From NCBI RefSeq assembly GCF_039962255.1, contig NZ_JAMPKY010000011.1:1-64000 (forward strand): 64,000 nt of DNA. The letters are read 5' to 3'. Position 1 is the first letter of the stretch. Each line of letters opens with the position of its first letter. The position numbers and the translations under genes were made by a program. This stretch comes from Leptolyngbya subtilissima AS-A7 (GTDB lineage Bacteria; Cyanobacteriota; Cyanobacteriia; Phormidesmidales; Phormidesmidaceae). Positions 5,857-61,419 of this stretch are shown in pieces. The notes under the pieces are model-generated. The model was not told where the DNA came from. It saw only the letters and a list, made by a program, of their open reading frames with translations, and ran no database searches.

Positions 5857-6069
5857 CTAGGCCTTCTTAGCTGCCTTGGGGGCCTCAACCTCTTGAAGCT
5901 CGGCCAGCGCGAAGTTGTTGGTGTTGATGCCAGCGTAATTGACGTTATTAAAACGCACTACCGCGGGGTATTTGATGCCGCTTTGGTCGATGGTGGCAAC
6001 GGTGCCGACTTCCCGGAACCAGTAAGACTCTTTGCGGAGAATGCGAACTTTAGAACCACGTTGAACCAT
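5857..6069 (-). CDS. psaE: Photosystem I reaction centre subunit IV
   Basis: 70 residues: [43 protein letters not shown] and [13 protein letters not shown], followed by an Ala/Lys tail. This is the SH3-like stromal PsaE, which helps ferredoxin docking on photosystem I and cyclic electron flow. The ATG at 6067-6069 gives the family's [10 protein letters not shown] start and sits 9 nt after AGAGGG; an in-frame TTG two codons upstream is rejected. It is transcribed divergently from the cluster beginning at 6438. Confidence 0.96.
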
Positions 6070-6437
6070 GAACAATGCCCTCTTAAAATCAATATTAATG
6101 GCAGCTTGCCCAGGCCAAACCTCAGCCCAGACTCATTGCAGAAAGCCGTGGCTAAGCTTGGATAGGGGGTTATTCCATGTCCACCAGATTACTACGAGTC
6201 TTCAACTCCATGGCATTAGGGGGTTTAAGTTTTATTGCAGCCCCGAAAACAGGATCCATAAAAATTAAGGAAGATCGTGGACGAATCAGTCCGCGGTCAG
6301 GATGGGTAGCCTTTAGACTGCCCGGAGGACAAAAAGGTGGTGGGGCGATCGCCCCAAATCTTTTCGCTACAATTTTGTTTACATTTCGCAACATAGGGGA
6401 ATATTAGTAATATCACCCCGCGGGAGACTTGCTCAGC
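6070..6437. other. Divergent spacer between psaE and the PAP-like cluster
   Basis: A 370-bp regulatory region with no credible ORF (the 6170-6407 ORFs overlap on both strands). The part around 6300-6420 carries a HIP1 octamer and the promoter at 6378-6407. Confidence 0.5.
6378..6407 (+). promoter_or_regulatory. Candidate promoter of the PAP-like cluster
   Basis: TTTACA (6378-6383), an 18-bp spacer and TATTAG (6402-6407) form a good -35/-10 pair 31 bp before the first ATG of the cluster. GGGAG at 6422-6426 is the ribosome binding site, 11 nt ahead of the ATG at 6438, which favours that ATG over the TTG at 6429. Confidence 0.55.
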
Positions 6438-6914
6438 ATGCTCACTAACGTCCAGGCTCTAGTCCAAGCCACCGATGGTCGCTACGCCTCTGACCAAGAG
6501 CTAATGTTTTTTCAGCAATACCTGGGCTCTGTTAGCACTCGGCTGCGAGCTTACCAAAAAATTCAGGGGGCCGAGCAGCAAATTATTAACCAAGTCCTGA
6601 CTCGGCTCAAGGTCCAAAAGCCCGATATCTTTTTAGTAGGTAGTCAAGACTTAGCCACCAAGTGGCAGCGAGACACGGTACGAGTGTTGCGCTACAGCGC
6701 CACGGCCCTGCTGCTCAATGATTCGGAATGGCTTAAAGACACCCTGCTGATGTGGTTTCAAAGCATCATGCGAGCCTTTGGGGCCCAGGAGAGCTGCAAC
6801 CTCACCTACACCGTTATGCAGGAGGTGATGACCCAGCACCTCAATACCGAAGAGCTAAGACTGTTTTTACCCATCCTGGAGCTGAGCCGTACCCTTTTGG
6901 GTAAGTCTATTTAA
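6438..6914 (+). CDS. Phycobilisome-domain-like protein without bilin cysteine (A)
   Basis: 158 all-helical residues with the globin-like helical pattern of phycobiliproteins (LMFFQQYLGSVSTRLRAYQKIQGAEQ, RDTVRVLRYSATALLLND, WLKDTLLMWFQSIMRAFG). It is a paralogue of the product at 8260: both share R-x5-VLRY-x-A-x-A-x-LL-x-D where phycobiliproteins carry the chromophore segment. The bilin-attachment Cys is absent; the only Cys (ESCNL) is elsewhere. So it probably does not bind a bilin covalently and may act as a scaffold or sensor. First gene of the plus-strand cluster that looks like the Synechocystis slr0144-slr0152 photosystem II assembly operon. Fold assignment is by eye and moderate. Confidence 0.6.
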   Translation: MLTNVQALVQATDGRYASDQELMFFQQYLGSVSTRLRAYQKIQGAEQQIINQVLTRLKVQKPDIFLVGSQDLATKWQRDTVRVLRYSATALLLNDSEWLKDTLLMWFQSIMRAFGAQESCNLTYTVMQEVMTQHLNTEELRLFLPILELSRTLLGKSI

Positions 6915-7016
6915 GCCCAGCCAGGAGCCGAAATCGTCGGCGTCAACCGATCGCCTAATCGCCACAACACCGGAGCCCAAGTCGCCAATTGCAGCGGCCT
7001 GGGCGCTTTCATATGG

Positions 7017-7029
7017 AGTAATAATTACT
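7017..7029. promoter_or_regulatory. Palindrome in the spacer before the first V4R gene
   Basis: AGTAATAATTACT is a 13-bp odd palindrome in the 295-bp gap between 6914 and 7210. The gap has no credible ORF (a TTG-started extension of the V4R frame from 7108 looks non-native). It may mark a second promoter or operator inside the cluster. Confidence 0.3.
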
Positions 7030-7209
7030 ACGTTTTGTGTCGTGACAGAAAAGCGTAGGTAGGCGACAATGCTTTATCTCCAGCAGCTTTAGCCCTGGGC
7101 AGACAGGTTGGCAACGGTGCGATCGCGCACCTCTGTGCTGTTAATTTTGCGTCGGCCTGGGCACATTACAGCTATCACTGAAAACAGTCTTACAAGGCCT
7201 GTTCGAGCT

Positions 7210-7893
7210 ATGGTTATGACCACAGAGACCGCCCACCGTCTGCACCAAAAATTTCCTAAGAAGCATAACCACTATGCCCTGCGGGATTTCTTTCAATTTA
7301 ATGGCGATTACGGCACCATTACCGACTGGAACGACACCCGTAATGTGCTCACTAGCGAAGACTTCATCATTGGCCTGCTAGAGGGACTGCAAGAAGAAGT
7401 TGGTGACGCCTCGGCCGCCATCATGTACACCGTGGGGCTGGAGTGGGGCAAACACGACTCGCTGATATTTGAAGCCTGGTTTGAGCGCGAGTTTGCCATG
7501 AGCCCCCGCCGCGCCAACCTGATGTTTTTGCTCGAAACCTGGTGGTGGCCCTTCATTTCTCAGGGCTGGGGCCGGTGGGAGGTCGACATGAGCGATCGCA
7601 AACAGGGCTTTATGTTTATCAACGTGTTCGACTCCGCTGTGGCTCGCACCCTGGGTGACGTAGGCAAGCCCGTCTGCCACCTCTACGCCGGTCTGTTTGC
7701 TGGGTTTTTTACCGAGATGGTGCGCAAGCAGCTGAGCTGCATTGAAATCCAGTGCTACTCCATGGGCGAGACCTACTGCAAGTTTTTGCTGGGGAGCCGC
7801 GAGCGCATCGATGCCGCCTCCTTCTGGATGAATGAAGGGGCCAACGCCCGCGACATTGAGAAGCGCCTGCGGGCTGGGGAAGGTGGCCAATGA
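7210..7893 (+). CDS. V4R-domain protein (Slr0144-like)
   Basis: 227 residues from the ATG at 7210 (a second ATG is at 7216). The V4R (4-vinyl reductase) domain fills most of the protein. It has a conserved region DASAAIMYTVGLEWGKHDSL, an aromatic helix LETWWWPFISQGWGRWEVD, and a C-terminal cysteine cluster CIEIQCYSMGETYCKFLLG, the C-x4-C-x7-C pattern typical of V4R modules that bind small hydrophobic ligands or tetrapyrrole-like molecules. In Synechocystis two V4R proteins, Slr0144 and Slr0147, belong to the PAP operon and accompany photosystem II assembly intermediates. The stop codon overlaps the next start (ATGA), so translation is probably coupled. The ligand is unknown. Confidence 0.8.
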   Translation: MVMTTETAHRLHQKFPKKHNHYALRDFFQFNGDYGTITDWNDTRNVLTSEDFIIGLLEGLQEEVGDASAAIMYTVGLEWGKHDSLIFEAWFEREFAMSPRRANLMFLLETWWWPFISQGWGRWEVDMSDRKQGFMFINVFDSAVARTLGDVGKPVCHLYAGLFAGFFTEMVRKQLSCIEIQCYSMGETYCKFLLGSRERIDAASFWMNEGANARDIEKRLRAGEGGQ

Positions 7894-8177
7894 GCGTATT
7901 TTCTGTAGAGTCGCAGAACCAACCCTGGCTGAGAGAGACGGTTCAGGCCTTCTTTGAAACCGTAGCCTGGGATGGGCGATCGGTTCTCGCCGTTCCGGGG
8001 CTGGGGTCAAGCGCCCGGTCAGAGTCGACCATGACCATGACCGTCGGCGATTTCTTCCAAAACATCGCCTGGGATGGACAGCCCATCGTCGGGGTACCAA
8101 TCTCTCCCCTAGCCACAACGACCACTCCCGCGGCTGACCCCAATCTCGATTTAACCCTGGACGATCTATTTGGCTAG
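7890..8177 (+). CDS. Small protein with duplicated FF-x3-AWDG motif (Slr0145 position)
   Basis: 95 residues, largely low-complexity linkers around two copies of a 20-residue motif. T17-V-Q-A-F-F-E-T-V-A-W-D-G ends V-P at 36; T51-V-G-D-F-F-Q-N-I-A-W-D-G ends V-P at 70; a truncated third echo LTLDDLFG sits at the C-terminus. T, V, FF, AWDG and VP are identical between copies. This looks like a multivalent adaptor with short binding motifs rather than an enzyme. It starts in the ATGA overlap with the upstream V4R gene and occupies the place of slr0145 in the Synechocystis order. I know no established function. Confidence 0.7.
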   Translation: MSVFSVESQNQPWLRETVQAFFETVAWDGRSVLAVPGLGSSARSESTMTMTVGDFFQNIAWDGQPIVGVPISPLATTTTPAADPNLDLTLDDLFG

Positions 8178-8259
8178 TCCTTGCCATTGCTTAGCCTGCT
8201 AGCCGACGGTAAGCGCCATCAACTCGACCACCTGCGCCCCACTTCCCCGGAGATTTGCC

Positions 8260-8748
8260 ATGACCTTCAAGCTCGATACCCTATTTGACTCGCCTGAAAA
8301 GCAATACCTCGACGCCAACGACCTCAGCGTTCTGAGCCAGTACGTCAGCTCAATTCCGGAGCGGATGGCAGTCTACCGCACCCTGCGGGACCAAGAAATT
8401 GCCATTATGCAGCCCATTGCCGATGCCCTGCAGCAGCAGGCCGGACACCCCGAGCCTTTAGTCGAGCGCAGTGTGCGCAATGGGCTGATGGTGCTGCGCT
8501 ACGCCGCCATGGCCATGCTGCTCGACGACGACGGCTTTGTGGAAGAGCGCTTGCAGGGCTGGCTGCCCGAGATGGTTAAAGCTTACGAAACCCAGGCGGT
8601 CGATCAACAGCTGTTTCAGCTGCTGATGCAGCAGTTGGCCAAGGTCTTTTCGCCGGCCCAGCTCAACCTGCTCAAGCCCAGCATTGAAAAGGCTAAAAGT
8701 CTGATGCTCAATACTCGCGAAACCGTCACCCTAGCCGGGTTGCTCTAG
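8260..8748 (+). CDS. Phycobilisome-domain-like protein without cysteine (B)
   Basis: 162 helical residues, paralogous to the product at 6438: LSQYVSSIPERMAVYRTLRDQEIAIMQPIADAL aligns with LGSVSTRLRAYQKIQGAEQQIINQVLTRL, and VRNGLMVLRYAAMAMLLDDDGF with TVRVLRYSATALLLNDSEW. It contains no cysteine at all, so no covalent bilin is possible. Its N-terminus KLDTLFDS resembles the C-terminal LTLDDLFG of the preceding small protein. It occupies the position of slr0146 between the small protein and the second V4R gene. An ATG with CCGGAGA about 11 nt upstream supports the start. Confidence 0.6.
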   Translation: MTFKLDTLFDSPEKQYLDANDLSVLSQYVSSIPERMAVYRTLRDQEIAIMQPIADALQQQAGHPEPLVERSVRNGLMVLRYAAMAMLLDDDGFVEERLQGWLPEMVKAYETQAVDQQLFQLLMQQLAKVFSPAQLNLLKPSIEKAKSLMLNTRETVTLAGLL

Positions 8749-8845
8749 GCATAACTAGCGGTTTGGCCGTTGGGGGTTGCCCCCGTCCCGCCAGTGCTCG
8801 GCGGGTCTGACCACCATCATCACTACCCTGTGAAGGACGTTAACT

Positions 8846-9508
8846 ATGGTTTCTGTTGCCGATTTACTCACCGATGGCCGGCTGCCCGGCAACTACTTTG
8901 CCCAAGATCTCTATGTGCGGGGCTCGACCGAGCTGGGTCTGCTGGAAAATCGTCGCGGCGATCGCCTATTGGCCATCCCTGACTCGCTGCTCCAGGCCAT
9001 TTATTCTGGGCTAGAAAAAGAAACTGGTCAGGCGTCGGGGCTAGTGCTCTACAACTGTGGCCGCTGGTGGGGCAAAAATTTCTACGCCCGCTTCTGTGAA
9101 GAGCTAGCCGACTACTACAAGCAGCCCCTCTCCAGCCTGTCGATGGCCGAATTTCTCCAGTCGCTACAGCAGTGTTGGAAGACCCACGGCTGGGGCCAGA
9201 TTCATCTGGATATTACCTACCGCGATCGCGGTTTTTTAGGGGTAGAAATCTGGCATTCTCCTTTCACTGCCGCTGCCCCCCAGGGCCAAAAAACGGCAGG
9301 CGACCTAGAGCGCGGCATTCTTGAAATCTTCTTTAGCCAGCTCACCGGGCGCGAGCTGCGCTGTGCCCAAACCAGCTGCACAGCCAAGGGCGACGACTGC
9401 AATCGCTTTGTTTTGGGCTTACAAAAGCGGCTACAGCCTGTAGAAGCTCTGGTGGCCAATGGCCAAGCCCACCAGGCCATTATGCAAACCCTTATGCAGC
9501 AGGGGTAA
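8846..9508 (+). CDS. V4R-domain protein (Slr0147-like)
   Basis: 220 residues. The N-terminal part (FAQDLYVRGSTELGLLENRRGDRLLAIPDSLL) leads into a V4R domain about 60-190 (GLEKETGQASGLVLYNCGRWWGKNFYARF, WKTHGWGQIHLD). It ends in the cysteine cluster CAQTSCTAKGDDCNRFVLG (C-x4-C-x6-C). A helical tail follows. It parallels the V4R gene at 7210 but is divergent in sequence. The kinase gene starts 7 nt past its stop, so the two are co-transcribed. The ligand and biochemical activity are not known from sequence; a link to photosystem II assembly is inferred from the Synechocystis operon. Confidence 0.8.
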   Translation: MVSVADLLTDGRLPGNYFAQDLYVRGSTELGLLENRRGDRLLAIPDSLLQAIYSGLEKETGQASGLVLYNCGRWWGKNFYARFCEELADYYKQPLSSLSMAEFLQSLQQCWKTHGWGQIHLDITYRDRGFLGVEIWHSPFTAAAPQGQKTAGDLERGILEIFFSQLTGRELRCAQTSCTAKGDDCNRFVLGLQKRLQPVEALVANGQAHQAIMQTLMQQG

Positions 9509-9515
9509 ACACACG

Positions 9516-11342
9516 GTGGCCCTCACCCGGCAAATTCGGCGATCGCAGTATTACACCTTGGGGCTGGTAGGGCACGGGCAGTTTGGCCGAGTCTACTGCG
9601 CCATCCACCGCAAAACTGGGGAACTGGTGGCGATTAAAGACCTCCACAAAGACCGCTTTCCCACCCATAAGTTTTTGCGAGAGCTGCGGTTTTTAATTAG
9701 CCTTGAACACCCCAGCATTGTCACCTGCCATGCCCTAGAGCATTCCACCAGCGGTCGCCAGTTGGTGCTTGACTACTGCGAGGGGGGCACGCTGCGATCG
9801 CTGCTCGAAAGCGACACAGTACTCACTGTGCAGGAGGTGCTGGGATTTACCCTAGACATTCTCGCCGCCCTGGAGTGCGCCCATCGCCAAGGCATTGTGC
9901 ACTGCGACATCAAGCCCGAAAACATTCTCATGGAGCTGACGCCTGGGGGCTGGGTGGCGCGGGTCTCCGATTTGGGCATTGCCCGCCTCAGCCAGGAAGC
10001 CAAAGAGGCCGATATGGGTCATACCGGCTCCCCCGCCTACATGGCCCCAGAGCGATTTTATAACCAGCATCCTCCTGCTGCCGACCTCTACGCTGTGGGC
10101 ATTATTTTGTATGAGCTGCTGCTGGGTCAGCGGCCCTTTTCGGGCACTCCTATGGAGTTGATGGTGGCTCACCTCAATCGGCCACCGATTGTGCCCGTCC
10201 AGGTTGCCGAGCCCTTTAGCCAGGTGCTGCGCAAAGCGCTACAAAAGCTGTTGCCCAAGCGCTACTTCAGCGCCCAAGCCATGCGCGCCGACCTGACGGC
10301 GATTTATCAGACTTACCAAACCCAGGGACTGCTGAGTCAGCCCGCCTGTGCCAAAGCGCTGCCAGAGCTAGATTTGGCCTCAGATTTGCCCTTTGTAGCG
10401 CTGCCTCACCCCACGGTGGTGATGGGCTTGGTGCCCCGACCCCATCAAAGCCATCTGATGGTGACCTGTAGCCAGCAGCGGGTATGGTTTTATCACTGGC
10501 CTCAAGCAGGTATGGCTACACCTCAGGCCAGTCAAGGCTTTGCGCTGCCCGCGCCAGTGCAAAGGTTTCTGCCAACTCCCCAGGGAGGCTTTTTGGTCAC
10601 CACAGAATCGCTGCACCTGTTGTCGATGACCCACGGTTTAGGCTGTGTTGCCCAAGGCATTTGCCCCGATGGGGTGGCGGTTGCCCCCAATGGGCGCTGG
10701 TTTGCCACCGCTACCCAGGTTGCCAAAGACTTATTCCGCGTAGCTGTGCGTCAGTTGACAATGCCACCGGAGCAAGGGGTCAAAATATCGGCACCGCGAA
10801 CAGCTGCGGTCGCCGCTGCGGATGGGGATAAACTAGTTACCCTTCTCGCTCCAGACAACCGCCACGCAGCGTTGGTAGTGCGCCGGGGTAGCCGTACGCT
10901 GTTTCACGGAGTAACCCGCCGGGGTACTTATCTCGGGGCAGTTGCTGCCTCGGTGCCCATTTACAATTTGGTGCCCACCCGCACCCCCTATCGTTACCTT
11001 GCCCTAGAGGAAAACTGCCCCAATGCTCTGCTGATCGTCGACCTGAAGCCATTTAGGATGCTGCGTTACCGGGTCGATATTTCACCACACTGGCTGTTTG
11101 AGACAGCTGTAGGCTACGGGCTGCTCAGCCAAGAGGGAGAATTTTTGCTGATTAACGATGAAGGCCGCGTCATCAATCGTACGGCTGGGCTGCCTCGACC
11201 GCAGGCTATGGTACCCCTACACTCTAAAACTAGCCCTGACAAATCAGCGCCGATTCAATATCTGTGGAGCGTCAGCGAAGCTGCGAGCAGTCGTATTTAC
11301 CCTGTTGATCTAGCCGATTTAGCTCCAGACATTCTGTTTTAA
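9516..11342 (+). CDS. Serine/threonine protein kinase, SpkG-like
   Basis: 608 residues from the GTG at 9516, which has AGGGG 10 nt upstream and does not overlap the V4R gene; an ATG at 9459 would overlap it by 50 nt. The Hanks-type kinase domain spans about 12-280: glycine loop GHGQFGRV (19-26), Lys41 in VAIK, catalytic loop HCDIKPEN with Asp131, DLG in place of DFG (152-154), and GSPAYMAPE. HCD and DLG are mild variants compatible with activity. The C-terminal 300 residues have repeated beta-strand-like blocks (VMGLVPRPHQSHLMVTCSQQ, LPTPQGGFLVTTE, GVAVAPNGRWFATAT), suggesting a propeller-like sensor. No transmembrane segment is seen. In Synechocystis, spkG (slr0152) closes the same cluster. 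Confidence 0.85.
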   Translation: MALTRQIRRSQYYTLGLVGHGQFGRVYCAIHRKTGELVAIKDLHKDRFPTHKFLRELRFLISLEHPSIVTCHALEHSTSGRQLVLDYCEGGTLRSLLESDTVLTVQEVLGFTLDILAALECAHRQGIVHCDIKPENILMELTPGGWVARVSDLGIARLSQEAKEADMGHTGSPAYMAPERFYNQHPPAADLYAVGIILYELLLGQRPFSGTPMELMVAHLNRPPIVPVQVAEPFSQVLRKALQKLLPKRYFSAQAMRADLTAIYQTYQTQGLLSQPACAKALPELDLASDLPFVALPHPTVVMGLVPRPHQSHLMVTCSQQRVWFYHWPQAGMATPQASQGFALPAPVQRFLPTPQGGFLVTTESLHLLSMTHGLGCVAQGICPDGVAVAPNGRWFATATQVAKDLFRVAVRQLTMPPEQGVKISAPRTAAVAAADGDKLVTLLAPDNRHAALVVRRGSRTLFHGVTRRGTYLGAVAASVPIYNLVPTRTPYRYLALEENCPNALLIVDLKPFRMLRYRVDISPHWLFETAVGYGLLSQEGEFLLINDEGRVINRTAGLPRPQAMVPLHSKTSPDKSAPIQYLWSVSEAASSRIYPVDLADLAPDILF

Positions 11343-12270: not shown

Positions 12271-12762
12271 ATGTCCACCGCTGTTATTTCACCTGTAGCT
12301 CAGTTGCGTTCTGAACTTGGCGACTTTAGTAGTATTATTTGCTTCAGAGCCTTAGTTGTTGGTACCGAAGAAGTCTTGGGTGAAAAGGCTGCTGCGATCG
12401 CCCTCATTGGTGCTGGCCGTCAGCGGGGTCGGCAAGTAGCAGAGCAATTAGGTCTTGCCGGGCAAGGTAGGTCGCTTGCATCTGTGGCTGAAGTACTTCA
12501 AGCTGCCCTGGGCAAGGATGGCACCCGACTCTGCATTGTTGATAAAATTGTCGAAGCCGAAGAAAAGATTTCAGTTTACTGTCGAGAGACGATTTGTTCG
12601 GCTGGAGAACCCGAAGGGTCTCCCCGTCAGCTCACTTTTACACTAGGAGCCATTCAAGGTGTGCTTGAGAGCGTCACAGGAAAGCGTTTGCGCGGCAAGC
12701 AAACGGAGTCTGTTCTGCGGGGCGGCAATTTTGACACGATCGAATTTGAAGTGATTGGTTAA
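12271..12762 (+). CDS. Conserved protein, weakly V4R-like
   Basis: 163 residues. I do not recognise a named gene. The C-terminal part (LTFTLGAIQGVLESVTGKRLRGKQTESVLRGGNFDTIEFEVIG) resembles the end of V4R/hydrocarbon-binding domains, with the G-A-x2-G-x3-x-V-T-GK pattern. The usual cysteine cluster is missing; the Cys residues present (ICF, LCIV, YCRETICSAG) are elsewhere. The central segment LGEKAAAIALIGAGRQRGRQVAEQLGL is compatible with an alpha/beta fold. Monocistronic, with 930 bp of AT-rich upstream DNA and a hairpin at 12787-12823 behind it. It may respond to the same signals as the V4R cluster upstream, but that is only proximity. Confidence 0.55.
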   Translation: MSTAVISPVAQLRSELGDFSSIICFRALVVGTEEVLGEKAAAIALIGAGRQRGRQVAEQLGLAGQGRSLASVAEVLQAALGKDGTRLCIVDKIVEAEEKISVYCRETICSAGEPEGSPRQLTFTLGAIQGVLESVTGKRLRGKQTESVLRGGNFDTIEFEVIG

Positions 12763-15416: not shown

Positions 15417-16865
15417 ATGCCTGCTGCCAATCCCCTGCTTGCCCTCGACTATCTGCCTGCCCTAGAGTCTCTGGGGGATGACTACTACGACATCGTAGCC
15501 GCCGCCGAATTTCCCAAGCACATCCTGCGGTTTCGCAACGACGATGTGGTGCGGCAGCTCGGCCTCGACCCCGCTGCCGTCAGCGATGATGACTTTACTG
15601 AGGCCTTTGGCAAATTCCAGGGGCGCGAACCTTTTTTGGCGCTGCGCTACCACGGCTACCAGTTTGGCGAATACAACCCCTTTTTGGGCGACGGGCGGGG
15701 CTTTCTCTACGGCCAGGTGCGCGGCACTGACGGCAACCTCTACGACTTTGGCACCAAAGGCTCTGGCACTACCCCTTACTCGCGCGGCGGCGACGGCATG
15801 CTCACCCTCAAGGGCGGCGTGCGCGAGGTGCTAGCGGCAGAAGCGCTCCACGCGCTGGGTGTGAATACGTCTCGGGCCTTTAGCCTAGTCGAAACGGGGC
15901 AAGCTCTCTGGCGCGGCGATGAGCCTTCCCCCACGCGATCGTCGGTGCTGGTGCGCTTTAGTCAATCGCACATTCGCTTTGGCACCTTTGAACGGTTGGA
16001 GTACCACAACCGCCCTGATCTGATCGCCAAGCTGCTGGAGCATGTGATCGATATTTATTACCCCGAGGCGCGGCTGTTTACCGATACCCAAGAGCGGTAT
16101 CTGCATTTTTATGGGGAACTGTGCGATCGCGTCGCCCGCCTTGCCGCCCAGTGGATGTCGGTGGGCTTCTGCCACGCTGTGCTCAACACCGACAACATGT
16201 CGATCACGGGCGAAAGCTTCGACTACGGCCCCTTCGCCTTTATGGATGGCTACGACCCCCGCTTCACCGCCGCATATTTCGACTATGCCGGGCGCTACAG
16301 CTACGGCAACCAGCCCATTATCTGCCAGATGAACCTTAAGGCGCTGCAAAAGCCCCTCAAACTGGTCATGCCCGAGGCGGATCTGGAAGCAGCTTTAGAA
16401 CCCTTTAAAGGTCGCTACGCAGTCTACTATCACGAGTGTATGCTCCACAAACTGGGCTTTGAAGCCCTCACGGACGATCTGGCCAGCACCTTAGTCAGCC
16501 AGACCATTGAATTGCTGAGCGCTATGGAGGTGGGCTATCACGATTTCTTCCTGGGTCTGACCCAGCAATTTTCGGCTGACTGGCGCGACGATGCCAGCCA
16601 AATTTTTAGCACCACGCTGCAAGCCTCTGACTCGGCGGCGGTGGCTCCGCTCGAAGCATGGAGCCAGACTTACTACCGTTGTTTGCAAAGTCTGGCTCCA
16701 GAAGCTATGGAAGGCGTTGCCTCGCTACTGCAACGTACCAACCCCTCCACCGTGCTCCTGCGCCCCGAAATTGAGGCGATCTGGGAACCCATTACGACTG
16801 ACGACAACTGGCAACCCTTCTACGACCTGCTGACTAAGATTCAGCATCCGTTTGTTCAGGGCTAG
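15417..16865 (+). CDS. selO: SelO-family protein adenylyltransferase (YdiU)
   Basis: 482 residues. The SelO pseudokinase-fold signature is visible: [83 protein letters not shown], and [28 protein letters not shown]. SelO enzymes bind ATP in an inverted orientation and transfer AMP to Ser/Thr/Tyr of target proteins, in a redox-linked stress role. The protein ends without the CxxU/C tail of some eukaryotic SelO. Translation starts at the ATG at 15417, giving full family length. No operon partner is clear. Confidence 0.92.
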
Positions 16866-17003
16866 GCCTTCTATTGGGTTGGTCTCAAGAATAGTAGGCA
16901 TTCCCTGCCCTACGGATCGTCAGCATCTCTTTTGGCAGGGGTAGGGCGTGACCGGCCCTAGGTAAACTGAGATACATAACGTCTTTATAGATGGTCTAAA
17001 CCC

Positions 17004-17330
17004 ATGGACGACAACCCTACCTCTAGCCCCCTGGCTCCTCCCGCCACCGGCAAAATTTTGCAGTGCTTTAGCGGTTCCTTTGTAGCAGGCACCATCGCTA
17101 TGCTGGCCTACCGCATGATGCTCTCGATCGCCGCTAACTTTGCCGCCCGCCCCGTGCTGACCGACAATCCAGCCGTGGCGAATATTTCATCCGCCGTGCG
17201 TACCCTGGTCGTCGGCATGGCCGCTCTGGGGGCTGGAATCTTTGGCCTAGCCGCCCTGGGGATCTTCTTGCTGGGCATTCAGCTGCTGTTTCAGCGCCTG
17301 ACCGGACGCCCTTCCACCCTGCAAGACTAG
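17004..17330 (+). CDS. Small membrane protein, DUF3082-like
   Basis: 108 residues with two predicted membrane segments: about 22-50 (LQCFSGSFVAGTIAMLAYRMMLSIAANFA) and 68-98 (RTLVVGMAALGAGIFGLAALGIFLLGIQLLF), with a short Pro-rich N-terminus. The pattern fits the cyanobacterial/plastid DUF3082 family. Function unknown. It lies between selO and the photolyase in the same direction, with 93 bp to the next gene. Confidence 0.65.
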   Translation: MDDNPTSSPLAPPATGKILQCFSGSFVAGTIAMLAYRMMLSIAANFAARPVLTDNPAVANISSAVRTLVVGMAALGAGIFGLAALGIFLLGIQLLFQRLTGRPSTLQD

Positions 17331-32034: not shown

Positions 32035-32155
32035 GTACCCCCACGGTTGACTCAATGGGGCATAATGAGAATTAGCTTTGGGGCTCAGGGGCATCGGCAA
32101 GAGCATTGCCCAGATTCGATTTACACCGTGTAGTGTTAAATTCCCCGGCAGGCCT

Positions 32156-33463
32156 ATGACAACCCAAGCCCGTCAGCTTAGCGACCTTCTCAAAGCCGGT
32201 ATTGAGCAAGCCCGGCTGGGCTATTTTGAGGCGGCGATCGCCCAGTTTGCTCAAGCCGTTGCCCTAGATCAAACCTGTGCTAAGGGCTTCTACAATCGGG
32301 GCTGTGCCCACCGCGATCTGGGTCGTAACGGGGCTGCGATCGACGACTTTTCGGCGGCCCTGCGCCTAGAGCCAACTTTCACCAATGCCTACATCAACCG
32401 GGGCAGCGTCTATCGGCTGGTGGGTCAGCTAAGCGAGGCCCTAGGTGATCTAGACCGGGCCATTGAGCTACAGCCCACTTCGGTGAAAGCCTACGGCAAT
32501 CGGGGCCGCATCAAGCTTGATTTAGAAGACTATGCCGGGGCGATCGCAGACTTTTCGGTGGTGCTAGTAGAGCAGCCTAAGTTCACTAAAATTCTGCTGT
32601 GGCGAGGGTTGGCCTACCTGAAGCAGGGGGCGATCGCCGCCTTGGCCGAACACCGCCGCGAGGCCTACCAGTTTGCTGTTGCTGACTTTTCTCGGTTGTT
32701 GCAGAGTCAACCCAACCACGCCGAAGCCTACAACTACCGGGCGGTAGCCCACTTTCAGCTGCGCAACACCTACCAGGCCACCCTCGACATCAACCGCGCC
32801 CTCGATTGCCAGGTTGACTATGCCGAGGCTTACATTAACCGGGGCATGCTGCGCCACGAGCTGGGCGACTTTCAGGGGGCAATCGACGACTACACCACGG
32901 TCTTACAGCTCAACCCCGAACTACAAGATCGCTCCTACAACCAGACCCTAGTGGGCCTAGCTCTCGACAGCCCCGATGCCACCCTGAGCGAAGACACCCC
33001 CCTCAACTTGCGCTTTCGCCTGGCCGACCTGTATGACAGCCGGGGGCTGCTACGGGCCCAGGTGGGCGACATGGAGGGGGCGATCGCCGACTACACTCTG
33101 GCTCTGCGCTTTAACCCCCACAGCGGTCGCATCTTGGCTAACCGAGGCCGCGTGTTTAGCCGCCAAGAAGACTATCCAGCGGCGATCGCTGATTTTGACT
33201 GCGCCCTAGAGATAAACGAGAGTGATGCCATGGCATACTGCGATCGCGGCTACGCCCTTTACTTTCTTGACGAGTGGGAGCTAGCTCTCGACGACTTCAA
33301 CTGCGCCATTGATATCAGCCCCTCCCTAGCCGAGGCCTATATCGGGCGCGGCCACACTAATATTCGTCTGGGCCATGGGGCTGCCCTGGCTATGGATGAC
33401 TTTCGCAAAGCCTTAGAGCTGTCGTGGGATAGCCGCAAATCGGAGCGATCGCGCCCGCTCTAG
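32156..33463 (+). CDS. Tetratricopeptide repeat protein
   Basis: 435 residues from the ATG at 32156 (a TTG 26 codons upstream is less likely). Almost entirely TPR units of 34 residues, with about ten recognisable (YFEAAIAQFAQAVALDQTCAKGFYNRGCAHRDLGRNGAAIDDFSAALRLEPT-type), interrupted by a non-TPR insert around 200 and 290. No signal peptide or transmembrane helix, so a cytoplasmic scaffold. Binding partner unknown. Confidence 0.85.
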   Translation: MTTQARQLSDLLKAGIEQARLGYFEAAIAQFAQAVALDQTCAKGFYNRGCAHRDLGRNGAAIDDFSAALRLEPTFTNAYINRGSVYRLVGQLSEALGDLDRAIELQPTSVKAYGNRGRIKLDLEDYAGAIADFSVVLVEQPKFTKILLWRGLAYLKQGAIAALAEHRREAYQFAVADFSRLLQSQPNHAEAYNYRAVAHFQLRNTYQATLDINRALDCQVDYAEAYINRGMLRHELGDFQGAIDDYTTVLQLNPELQDRSYNQTLVGLALDSPDATLSEDTPLNLRFRLADLYDSRGLLRAQVGDMEGAIADYTLALRFNPHSGRILANRGRVFSRQEDYPAAIADFDCALEINESDAMAYCDRGYALYFLDEWELALDDFNCAIDISPSLAEAYIGRGHTNIRLGHGAALAMDDFRKALELSWDSRKSERSRPL

Positions 33464-48465: not shown

Positions 48466-49167
48466 TTACTCCAGCGCCAGCCGCCGCTCCGCAAATGCTC
48501 GATTGTGGCGGAGATTTAGCTCCAGTTCCACTAGTTCACTGAGCTGGGTAGTGAGGGTTTCAATGCGCTTATTGGCTGCGACCCTGCGGTGGAGAGCTGC
48601 CCTAGCGAGATCTTCTCGACCGATGGCTAGGGCCTTCTCGGCAACGTGGTGCCATTCGTCGGCTGCTTTATAGGCGGTCTGCTGGTCGGCTAGGGTAGTG
48701 TTGTAGGCGGTGGCAATGTCGCCTAGGGCTTTTTGAAAGTTGGCTCGGGCTTCGACGGGGGTGGTGGTGTAGCGATCGCCCTCGGCCAGTCGCCGCAGTT
48801 CGGGTAGGTTAAGCTGGTCGGTGCGCAAGCCAAAGTTGGCTAGCTGGCGGCTTTCGCTGCGGCCTGTGGTGCACCAGTTAGCAAAATGTTCGCAGTTGTT
48901 AAGCAGCAAGTCGTACTGACGCTCGCCTAAGCGACTGATTGCCCGCTCGACAACAACGTCAGGGTCATAGACCAGCGATTTGCGAACGGTGTAAACCGGG
49001 TTGTTCCAAGAAAAGGCGTCGTAGCTGGTGCGAGCGATCTCAGCGATATCTCGGGCTTTGCTGTAGTGGATGACGGTACCATCGCCGCAGTCAATGCCGT
49101 GGTGCTGATATAGCCCAGGTACCCCTGCCAGGTCGCGCATGACGTAAATTTGATCACCCTTGGCCAT
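48466..49167 (-). CDS. LRAT/NlpC-like acyltransferase-type domain fused to PspA-like coiled coil
   Basis: 233 residues from the ATG at 49165-49167. Residues 1-125 match the LRAT/NlpC-P60-like NC family: GDQIYVMRDLAGVPGLYQHHGIDCGDGTVIHYS with His22/His23, and LLLNNCEHFANWC with Cys92. Residues 140-233 are a helical segment (FQKALGDIATAYNTTLADQQTAYKAADEWHHVAEKALAIGREDLARAALHRRVAANKRIETLTTQL) that closely resembles PspA/Vipp1 (IM30). A longer upstream ORF to 49515 is not used. The fusion hints at membrane-stress-linked lipid or protein acyl transfer. Confidence 0.7.
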   Translation of the reverse strand: MAKGDQIYVMRDLAGVPGLYQHHGIDCGDGTVIHYSKARDIAEIARTSYDAFSWNNPVYTVRKSLVYDPDVVVERAISRLGERQYDLLLNNCEHFANWCTTGRSESRQLANFGLRTDQLNLPELRRLAEGDRYTTTPVEARANFQKALGDIATAYNTTLADQQTAYKAADEWHHVAEKALAIGREDLARAALHRRVAANKRIETLTTQLSELVELELNLRHNRAFAERRLALE

Positions 49168-49406
49168 AGCTGCTGTCTCGCTTAGAACAGTGTTATCAAA
49201 ACCTTGAGGTAGGCTGCAATTTGGGCAAGGGCAAGCGGCCGTTTGCCCCGACGACAGCCCAGTGTTTAACGGTAAAACCGTACCTATTCCTGTTAAGGAC
49301 TCATGGACGTGCCTATGAGCAGCGACCTGAAATAGGTATTTGTGCCATTGCCCTTCTTCGTTATAGCAGCCCTGTTTGTGGCTGGGCAGTGCGGGCATAC
49401 ACACCG

Positions 49407-50072
49407 CTAAAACCCCATTTCTCCCGTTGCCAAATCTAAGCTGAGCTGTCCTCCAGCGGCAGGGATTGTCATGCGATCGCCTGTGAGATCCATCTCGGGG
49501 TTGCCGCTTAGCCAAAAGCCCTGGGCAGCTTGGTCAACGACTGCCGCTCGCGACTGACCACTAACCTCGACAATGTCGTCAAAGCTGTGCTGGGCCACGA
49601 CATCTCCGTCTAAACCCATCATCACAATGGCGCGAGGGCTGGCCACGTTAATCCATTCGTCGAGAAGTACCACGGTACCGGCGTCATTCACCAGAGCCAG
49701 GCGGGGACCGTAGCTGTGAGGCAATCGGTCTGACCAGACTTGCTGACAGCGATCGCCCAGGGTCTCAAACAGACTAGCGGTAGTGCGCTGAGTGCCAGCC
49801 TCGTCTTTCCCCAGCGTCAAAATCAGGTGGTAGTTGCCAGCAGGCGACGTTTCGTGGCGCAGCAGCGGTGGGTAAGGAATAGAATCCTGGCCAAGCACGG
49901 GCAGCGATTGCGATAGAAGAGCGAAACCTGGCAGAGTAGTCCAGTTAGACACCAAGCCCAAAGACGGCTGTGGGATGGTGGCACGAGCCGTCTCACTGAA
50001 GGGGATAGGTCCGTTCACGGTCACCATCACTCCCTGAGCAACCAGCAGCCAGCCAATTAGCACTGCCATCAT
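49407..50072 (-). CDS. Secreted hypothetical protein paired with the metzincin
   Basis: 221 residues. The N-terminal hydrophobic segment MMAVLIGWLLVAQGVMVTV is a signal peptide or anchor; the rest looks like a small beta-rich domain (GNYHLILTLGKDEAGTQRTTASLFETLGDRCQQVW, GPRLALVNDAGTVVLLDEWIN). The start overlaps the upstream stop as ATGA, so it belongs to the protease operon. No family recognised. Confidence 0.6.
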   Translation of the reverse strand: MMAVLIGWLLVAQGVMVTVNGPIPFSETARATIPQPSLGLVSNWTTLPGFALLSQSLPVLGQDSIPYPPLLRHETSPAGNYHLILTLGKDEAGTQRTTASLFETLGDRCQQVWSDRLPHSYGPRLALVNDAGTVVLLDEWINVASPRAIVMMGLDGDVVAQHSFDDIVEVSGQSRAAVVDQAAQGFWLSGNPEMDLTGDRMTIPAAGGQLSLDLATGEMGF

Positions 50073-61092: not shown

Positions 61093-61419
61093 ATGCCCAC
61101 CGTCACCGCCCAGGGAAAAACCATGCAGTGCGAAGCCGGAGCCAACCTGCGCCAGGTCTTGCTAACCCACGGTATCGATCTCTACAACGGCCAGGCCAAG
61201 GTGATCAACTGCCGCAGTCTTGGCACCTGCGGCACCTGCGCAGTGGCAATCCAAGGCGAAGTTTCAGCCACCAACTGGAAAGACAAGGCACGCCGATCCC
61301 TCCCTCCCCACGACCCCGCCCGCGACCTCCGCCTCGCCTGCCAAACCCAAGTACTGGGCGACATTGTCGTCACTAAATACGACGGCTTCTGGGGCCAAGG
61401 CCAAACCCCCATCTGGTAA
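61093..61419 (+). CDS. [2Fe-2S] ferredoxin, Slr0148-like
   Basis: 108 residues. Plant-type fold with ligands Cys40, Cys46, Cys49 and Cys83 (INCRSLGTCGTCAVAIQ ... RLACQT), i.e. C-x5-C-x2-C-x33-C, one residue longer than PetF in the first spacing. VTKYDGFWGQG ends the domain. The sequence resembles Slr0148, the ferredoxin of the Synechocystis PAP operon, which is missing from the related cluster at 6438-11342 here; that this is its displaced counterpart is an inference. It ends 21 bp before the convergent hydrolase gene. Confidence 0.8.
   Translation: MPTVTAQGKTMQCEAGANLRQVLLTHGIDLYNGQAKVINCRSLGTCGTCAVAIQGEVSATNWKDKARRSLPPHDPARDLRLACQTQVLGDIVVTKYDGFWGQGQTPIW

Follow-up and report, generated by a model that had tools for sequence, protein, structure and literature searches.

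The first 64,000 nucleotides of contig C11 (bases 1-64000) of the Leptolyngbya subtilissima AS-A7 genome, which comprises 5.66 Mb in 18 contigs, were analysed, and this whole stretch is called the window below. Six plus-strand genes in it, arranged as globN-V4RA-small-glob2-V4RB-kinase, make up a Pap (slr0144-slr0152)/BBAG cluster, and this arrangement is that of one lineage. Missing from the run is the Slr0148-type ferredoxin (Fd5), which was not lost, only moved to another locus. Fd5 and V4R share their inheritance also in genomes in which they are unlinked. We consider it reasonably probable that two loci, the cluster and a second one in which Fd5 adjoins a gene called rb262, together encode a single conserved module, and that this module is a thylakoid ligand- and redox-sensing complex with the kinase as its output.

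Fd5 is retained at another locus and accompanies V4R

A profile built from 11 Slr0148-type ferredoxins that are encoded within clusters was used to search the ferredoxin loci of the strain's own genome, together with the window. The orthologue was found on contig C6 (G000:C6:272126-272605; 161 aa, E 6.8e-81, 264 bits), and the next match reached 37 bits. The window itself encodes a small [2Fe-2S] protein at 61093-61419 on the plus strand (Fer2, 2.7e-7), which is distant from the Slr0148 type and was rejected as the missing gene (23.5 bits against 264 for the gene on C6). A TPR gene at 32078-33463 was likewise rejected as Slr0151 because it matches the TPR part of the profile only.

The relationship between Fd5 and V4R was examined in 388 genomes, a sample of the class with completeness of at least 90%, in which presence was scored at E <= 0.001 for V4R, E <= 1e-30 for Fd5 and E <= 1e-8 for rb262. 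V4R was present in 211 genomes and Fd5 in 208, with both in 207, V4R only in four (G053, G145, G160, G181), Fd5 only in one (G113) and neither in 176; the Fisher p value for this association, which ignores shared ancestry, is 1.5e-105. Among the 50 sampled genomes of the window's family, 36 have both, 13 have neither, none has Fd5 only, and one has V4R only (G053, a single weak match), which means that V4R and Fd5 agree in 49 of 50 genomes although they are unlinked. Because no Fd5 lies near the cluster in any of the 21 mapped stretches of this family, a single deletion cannot easily remove both. Four genomes (G037 and G039 of g1, G005 of g3 and G060 of g13) lack V4R, Fd5 and rb262 alike, and members of the same genera keep both V4R and Fd5. 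That these unlinked genes are absent jointly speaks for a regular partnership of the Fe-S protein with the V4R and globin proteins, rather than for a mere passenger in an operon.

The preliminary description had read the run as a V4R, phycobilin-fold and kinase core kept without its redox genes, and had proposed that this core is a separable module for ligand sensing and phosphorylation. Stated as a rival explanation, the cluster would be a reduced, redox-free module whose ferredoxins were dropped and to which a phycobilisome-domain gene was added. At the locus itself the absence holds, as Fd5, the Slr0150-type ferredoxin and the Slr0151-type gene were each found in 0 of the 21 mapped cluster stretches of the family. 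Furthermore, the Slr0150-type ferredoxin and the Slr0151-type TPR gene occur in only 24 and 49, respectively, of 141 mapped loci, and these two genes are therefore separable. For the genome the absence fails in the case of Fd5, which is present elsewhere in the strain and in 36 of the 37 family genomes with V4R. This result refutes the explanation for Fd5, the common inheritance of Fd5 and V4R contradicts a separable core, and the globin is of the Slr0149 type and not a gain. We therefore regard a redox-free module as highly improbable.

rb262 is a neighbour and candidate partner of Fd5

Fd5 stretches in the window's family were fetched from the strain's own genome and 14 others. In all 15, the gene directly before Fd5 encodes rb262, a protein of 260 to 313 aa, and in 14 a divergent gene for a LysR-type regulator lies beyond it, the contig of the 15th ending at this point. 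The second locus of the family consists of the LysR-type regulator, rb262, Fd5 and often HrcA. Whether the regulator is RbcR was left unsettled by NCBIfam, and it is called LysR-type only. The name rb262 is a working label. A resemblance to roadblock proteins, suggested by eye, was rejected, as none of the searches supported it: in Pfam, the best matches to a set of 14 rb262 proteins did not go beyond E 0.046 and occurred in one member each, the rb262 of the window strain had no NCBIfam match at 0.01, and a PDB sequence search gave nothing better than E 0.62.

The trio of LysR, rb262 and Fd5 was also found in five of six fetched genomes of other families with Fd5 outside the cluster (G084, G067, G225, G069 and G078, not G299). 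Because it is common to five genomes of other families, this layout is old and stable, as would be expected if the relocated Fd5 had acquired a different role, such as one together with rb262 and the LysR-type regulator, so that its link to the cluster were history only. The absence of globN, the usual neighbour of Fd5, from 5 of the 21 family maps points the same way. However, the agreement between V4R and Fd5 across the family persists without linkage, and rb262 itself lies inside the cluster in other families: where clusters have Fd5 before V4RA, rb262 is directly upstream of Fd5 in 17 of 22. We consider a new role for Fd5 to be unlikely.

Returning to the two-locus module, rb262 was detected in 193 of the 388 genomes; 191 have both rb262 and Fd5, two have rb262 only (G145, G296), 17 have Fd5 only and 178 have neither. 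This shared distribution, together with the position inside clusters, indicates that rb262 is part of the association and not just a landmark, which makes it a further candidate subunit. In type I loci (layouts are defined below), a protein that shares mainly the C-terminal part of rb262, represented by a 107-position profile, was found in 21 of 54 fetched stretches, several of which have it immediately before V4RA. The G120 genome has the gene for an rb262-domain protein on the chromosome, far from the cluster. One locus encodes a 600-aa fusion (L098:17749-19551) of a stretch that resembles pentapeptide repeats by eye, the rb262 C-terminal domain and V4RA, and a separate rb262-type gene lies beside it at 16345-17187. 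A literature search, which cannot exclude such a report, found none of rb262 together with V4R.

The six genes form a Pap/BBAG cluster

The six-gene run is confirmed as described, with every open reading frame found and the domain types borne out by Pfam except for the small protein (Table 1). The gaps between the genes, in order, are 295, -4 (an ATGA overlap), 82, 97 and 7 bp, the last of these if the kinase starts at GTG 9516; its open reading frame opens at ATG 9459. V4RA and V4RB are the only two V4R matches in the genome at E <= 0.001.

Table 1. Genes of the cluster in the window
Gene and product	Position	Strand	Basis
globN, Slr0149-type phycobilisome-domain globin (BBAG), 158 aa	6438..6914	+	PF00502 2.3e-17
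V4RA, Slr0144-type, 227 aa, C156/E179/C182/C190	7210..7893	+	PF02830 4.6e-21
Small motif protein, 95 aa, Slr0145 position	7890..8177	+	translation; no Pfam match
glob2, second phycobilisome-domain protein, 162 aa, Slr0146 position	8260..8748	+	PF00502 7.5e-8
V4RB, Slr0147-type, 220 aa, C-E-C-C degenerate (Gly152, Gln175)	8846..9508	+	PF02830 8.9e-13
SpkG-type Ser/Thr kinase, 608 aa from GTG 9516	9516..11342	+	Pkinase 8.7e-47

For comparisons with Synechocystis PCC 6803, which was not among the best 80 genomes of a second genome scan, we used L070 as a stand-in, a locus of genome G120 with the slr0144-slr0152 gene order. The best-matching named genome in that scan was Cyanobacteria bacterium RI_101, with 92% identity to L070. 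The kinase of the window and that of L070 are reciprocal best matches, at 281.5 and 281.9 bits against 87.7 and 65.8 for the respective runners-up. Each of the two V4R genes likewise has its own counterpart in L070 (335 vs 69 bits and 252 vs 74 bits). Against this stand-in, the proposed homology to slr0144-slr0152 is upheld. The two V4R genes lie around the small protein and a phycobilisome-domain protein, as expected of a Pap cluster, and the SpkG-type kinase follows. Relative to the Pap operon of Synechocystis sp. PCC 6803, the pairing with L070 shows that V4RA, the small protein, glob2, V4RB, the Slr0149-type globin and the SpkG-type kinase are shared, whereas here the globin is upstream instead of downstream and carries Trp instead of Cys, Fd5 is on another contig, and the locus has no Slr0150-type or Slr0151-type gene.

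Nine gene families were mapped at 141 loci, namely the window, 60 stretches and 80 loci from the second scan, with a few genomes represented in both sets. The core V4RA-small-glob2-V4RB is contiguous in 134 maps and the exact six-gene order of the window recurs in 31, counting the window, so the order is not due to chance. The remaining genes are arranged around this core in a few ways. In type I, the slr0144-slr0152 order, the core is followed by Fd5, globN, in some cases the Slr0150-type ferredoxin, the Slr0151-type gene and the kinase (Fd5 after V4RB in 55 maps); type II is Fd5-globN-core-kinase (13 maps); and in type III the core is followed by globN and Fd5 on the opposite strand and then the kinase (26 maps). 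Fd5 lies directly before V4RA in nine further maps, and 20 maps, including the window, have globN-V4RA without Fd5 in the stretch. In related families, the same gene run is preceded by rb262-Fd5.

The upstream globin had been taken for an extra phycobilisome-domain gene. Orthology pairs it with the globin that adjoins Fd5 in type I clusters, where it is downstream of Fd5, and it is thus the Slr0149-type BBAG in the type II position and not an addition. A ferredoxin at this same position in neighbouring genomes had been named as evidence against the original reading, and this turned out to be half the case: Fd5 lies directly upstream of the globin in 13 mapped loci, which belong to other families. 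As a whole, the interpretation in the preliminary description is partly supported.

Two neighbours of the cluster were also noted. In the window and in each of the 11 loci from the same genus (L042-L052), a psaE gene (window 5857-6075, minus strand; PF02427 1.7e-35) is divergent from globN or the cluster, whereas 0 of the other 129 mapped loci gave a psaE match. The adjacency is suggestive because the Pap genes have been linked to photosystem I (PSI) as well. Downstream of the kinase, at 12271-12762 on the plus strand, lies a gene for a 163-aa protein that is kept in four other same-genus loci. NCBIfam gave no match to it and Pfam none that is credible; its C-terminal part looks V4R-like by eye.

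The bilin-attachment column of globN differs between layouts

Both phycobilisome-domain proteins had been described as bilin-less, which is correct at the canonical site. In globN (P0001), Trp76 stands in the column of the chromophore Cys, within the motif KWQRD, and Cys120 is the sole cysteine; glob2 (P0004) has no cysteine. We aligned globN with 9 of the 15 PF00502 matches of the own genome, selected by a pattern filter, and all nine have Cys at this column. Two divergent phycobilisome-domain proteins of the genome were left out of this alignment (L193, G000:C5:138619-139041, and L194, G000:C10:14220-14642; 71 and 63.8 bits). The globN model (mean pLDDT 94.5) matches allophycocyanin with a TM score of 0.84. 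The protein therefore shares its fold with light-harvesting phycobiliproteins, from which it differs by lacking the chromophore Cys at the usual column and by an identity of 15-21% to the 50 chains listed. The phycobiliprotein-type fold and the association with the cluster are those of a BBAG; the CXRD motif, which is given for some but not all cyanobacterial BBAGs and is thus not strictly defining, is replaced by KWQRD in the window.

When the rows were sorted by layout, in counts that include second copies and other paralogues, type I globins had Cys at the column in 43 of 51 cases (the others being 2 Trp, 2 Ser, 2 Tyr, 1 Phe and 1 Gly), type II globins had Trp in 32 of 33, and the 27 type III globins were divided between Trp (15) and Cys (12). 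All 32 Trp-bearing type II rows keep the Asp of CXRD, and 28 of the 32 keep its Arg. Cys120 is found in all 32 of these rows and in both Trp-bearing type I rows, is absent from 41 of the 43 Cys-bearing type I rows, and occurs in 0 of the 15 Trp-bearing type III rows; Trp76 and Cys120 are thus paired in two layouts and unpaired in the third. The residue aligned with Cys120 in L191, a 162-aa phycobiliprotein of the same genome that we take to be CpcA-like, is Trp128, in which case this Trp presumably lines the CpcA pocket.

A quick tree of globN (111 rows, those shorter than 140 aa having been dropped), which like our other quick trees has many open forks and long branches, implies at least four changes between Cys and Trp; for Microcoleus-type clusters, it places Cys rows in the midst of Trp rows. 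The change is easy, since the codons differ by one base, and the near-fixity of Trp in type II globins suggests selection. A second, Cys-bearing globN-like gene (L049:15981-16448) lies about 3 kb beyond the kinase in a same-genus genome (G042), on a long branch. The Cys/Trp difference offers a direct test of whether the function of the module needs bilin attachment.

A more specific version of the two-locus module, which we hold only tentatively and think rather doubtful, is that the BBAG here has a turned-round chromophore pocket with Trp at column 76 and Cys at column 120, where L191 has Trp128, which would hold a tetrapyrrole through Cys120 or non-covalently, and that rb262, a frequent further member of the module, contributes a domain of about 107 residues absent from the family libraries searched.

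V4RA retains a putative sensor site

V4RA carries C156, E179, C182 and C190 (spacing 0, +23, +26, +34), and this C-E-C-C set is kept in 142 of 142 sequences. The four columns match those of PoxR and MopR, in the latter of which we take them to have a role in zinc binding, although a literature search gave no confirmation; by this set V4RA is a putative zinc-type V4R sensor. In agreement, a structure model of the L070 protein, the first row of the alignment (mean pLDDT 74.6), gave Foldseek matches to the sensor domains of PoxR, MopR and DmpR (18 chains, E 4.3e-6 to 1.7e-4); H-NOX heme domains and TRAPP subunits were matched less strongly. Unlike PoxR, MopR and DmpR, V4RA has no AAA+ or DNA-binding domain and has an N-terminal part of its own, and its ligand is a prediction. 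In V4RB, the Glu column is occupied by Gln in 133 of 136 sequences, and the first-Cys column, at which the window protein has Gly, by Cys in 99 of 136.

The small protein contains copies of a TVxxFFxxxAWDG-like motif (FFxxxxW repeats) and a C-terminal LTLDDLFG (LF motif), and its gene overlaps that of V4RA by 4 bp in 104 of 136 relatives. The repeats look alike by eye in the 24 of 136 mapped relatives shown; as a strict pattern finds only 0 to 4 copies in the 136 relatives, this reading is made partly by inspection. A CXRD site in glob2 was considered and rejected, since it occurs at the column in 0 of 137 relatives, 11 of which have Cys there without RD. The kinase motifs VAIKD, HCDIKPEN and SDLG are all present.

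These features bear on a third explanation, in which the phycobilisome-domain and V4R folds serve as building blocks of a non-sensing scaffold for photosystem assembly that binds no ligand. Such a scaffold would account for the Trp in the globN of this lineage and for the absence of CXRD from glob2, and it fits the lower photosystem II (PSII) activity of pap mutants (PMC9145668). On the other hand, the invariance of the C-E-C-C set in V4RA and the retention of the bilin-motif Asp and Arg in the Trp-type upstream globins point to retained binding chemistry, and we judge a ligand-free scaffold to be rather unlikely.

Proposed mechanism and relation to published work

Published work supplies the background for the two-locus module. 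In Synechocystis, interactions among Slr0144-Slr0149 are supported by co-fractionation and affinity purification, the proteins being on the thylakoid membrane (PMC9880817), and loss of SpkG abolishes the phosphorylation of Fd5 (PMC11863333). In the mechanism that we propose, V4RA would bind a hydrophobic ligand, which may be a tetrapyrrole set free when photosystems are turned over, and the repeated motifs of the small protein may hold the globin-fold and V4R subunits together. GlobN, unable to attach a bilin at the usual Cys, would act as a structural or otherwise ligand-binding subunit. Fd5 would be the redox arm, reporting or supplying electrons, and the SpkG-type kinase would be the output, with Fd5 as its likely target. 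What we infer here is the ligand, the role of the small protein as a scaffold and the direction in which the signal runs.

Several observations weigh against this two-locus module. The counts of joint presence are uncorrected for shared ancestry, and G145 and G181 have V4R without Fd5, which may reflect assembly gaps. rb262 is not universal, since 17 genomes have Fd5 alone and its domain was found in 0 of 27 type III stretches, and globN, missing from five of the family's 21 stretches, is not essential at this locus. The kinase activity of SpkG itself has only indirect support (PMC11863333). Reports also differ: in a review, the pap set is listed with reduced growth rate and reduced PSII activity (PMC9145668), growth was unaffected under the conditions tested and oxygen evolution reduced in another study (PMC5970561), and other work ties the pap set to PSI (PMC4853703).

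The cluster, the BBAG, the two V4R clades, the variable layout and the loss in many cyanobacteria have already been published by Rockwell, Martin and Lagarias (PMC10151467), who give CXRD for some, not all, cyanobacterial BBAGs, which implies its absence from others, and state that BBAG functions are unknown. Their BBAG/V4R clade A and B/Fe-S cluster is the system described here, except that in the window strain the Fe-S gene is unlinked and the BBAG lacks CXRD; rb262 was not found mentioned in the excerpted text. A 2026 preprint describes the two V4R proteins as products of duplication (PMC13174344), and the Pap proteins have been called poorly understood (PMC9175036). In the excerpted literature we found neither an Fd5 retained without linkage, nor rb262 as a partner, nor the pattern of Trp76 and Cys120, and the supplement of PMC10151467 may hold parts of them.

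Elsewhere in the window, a gene on the minus strand (48466-49515) encodes a 349-aa protein with an LRAT domain (PF04970, 1.4e-22).

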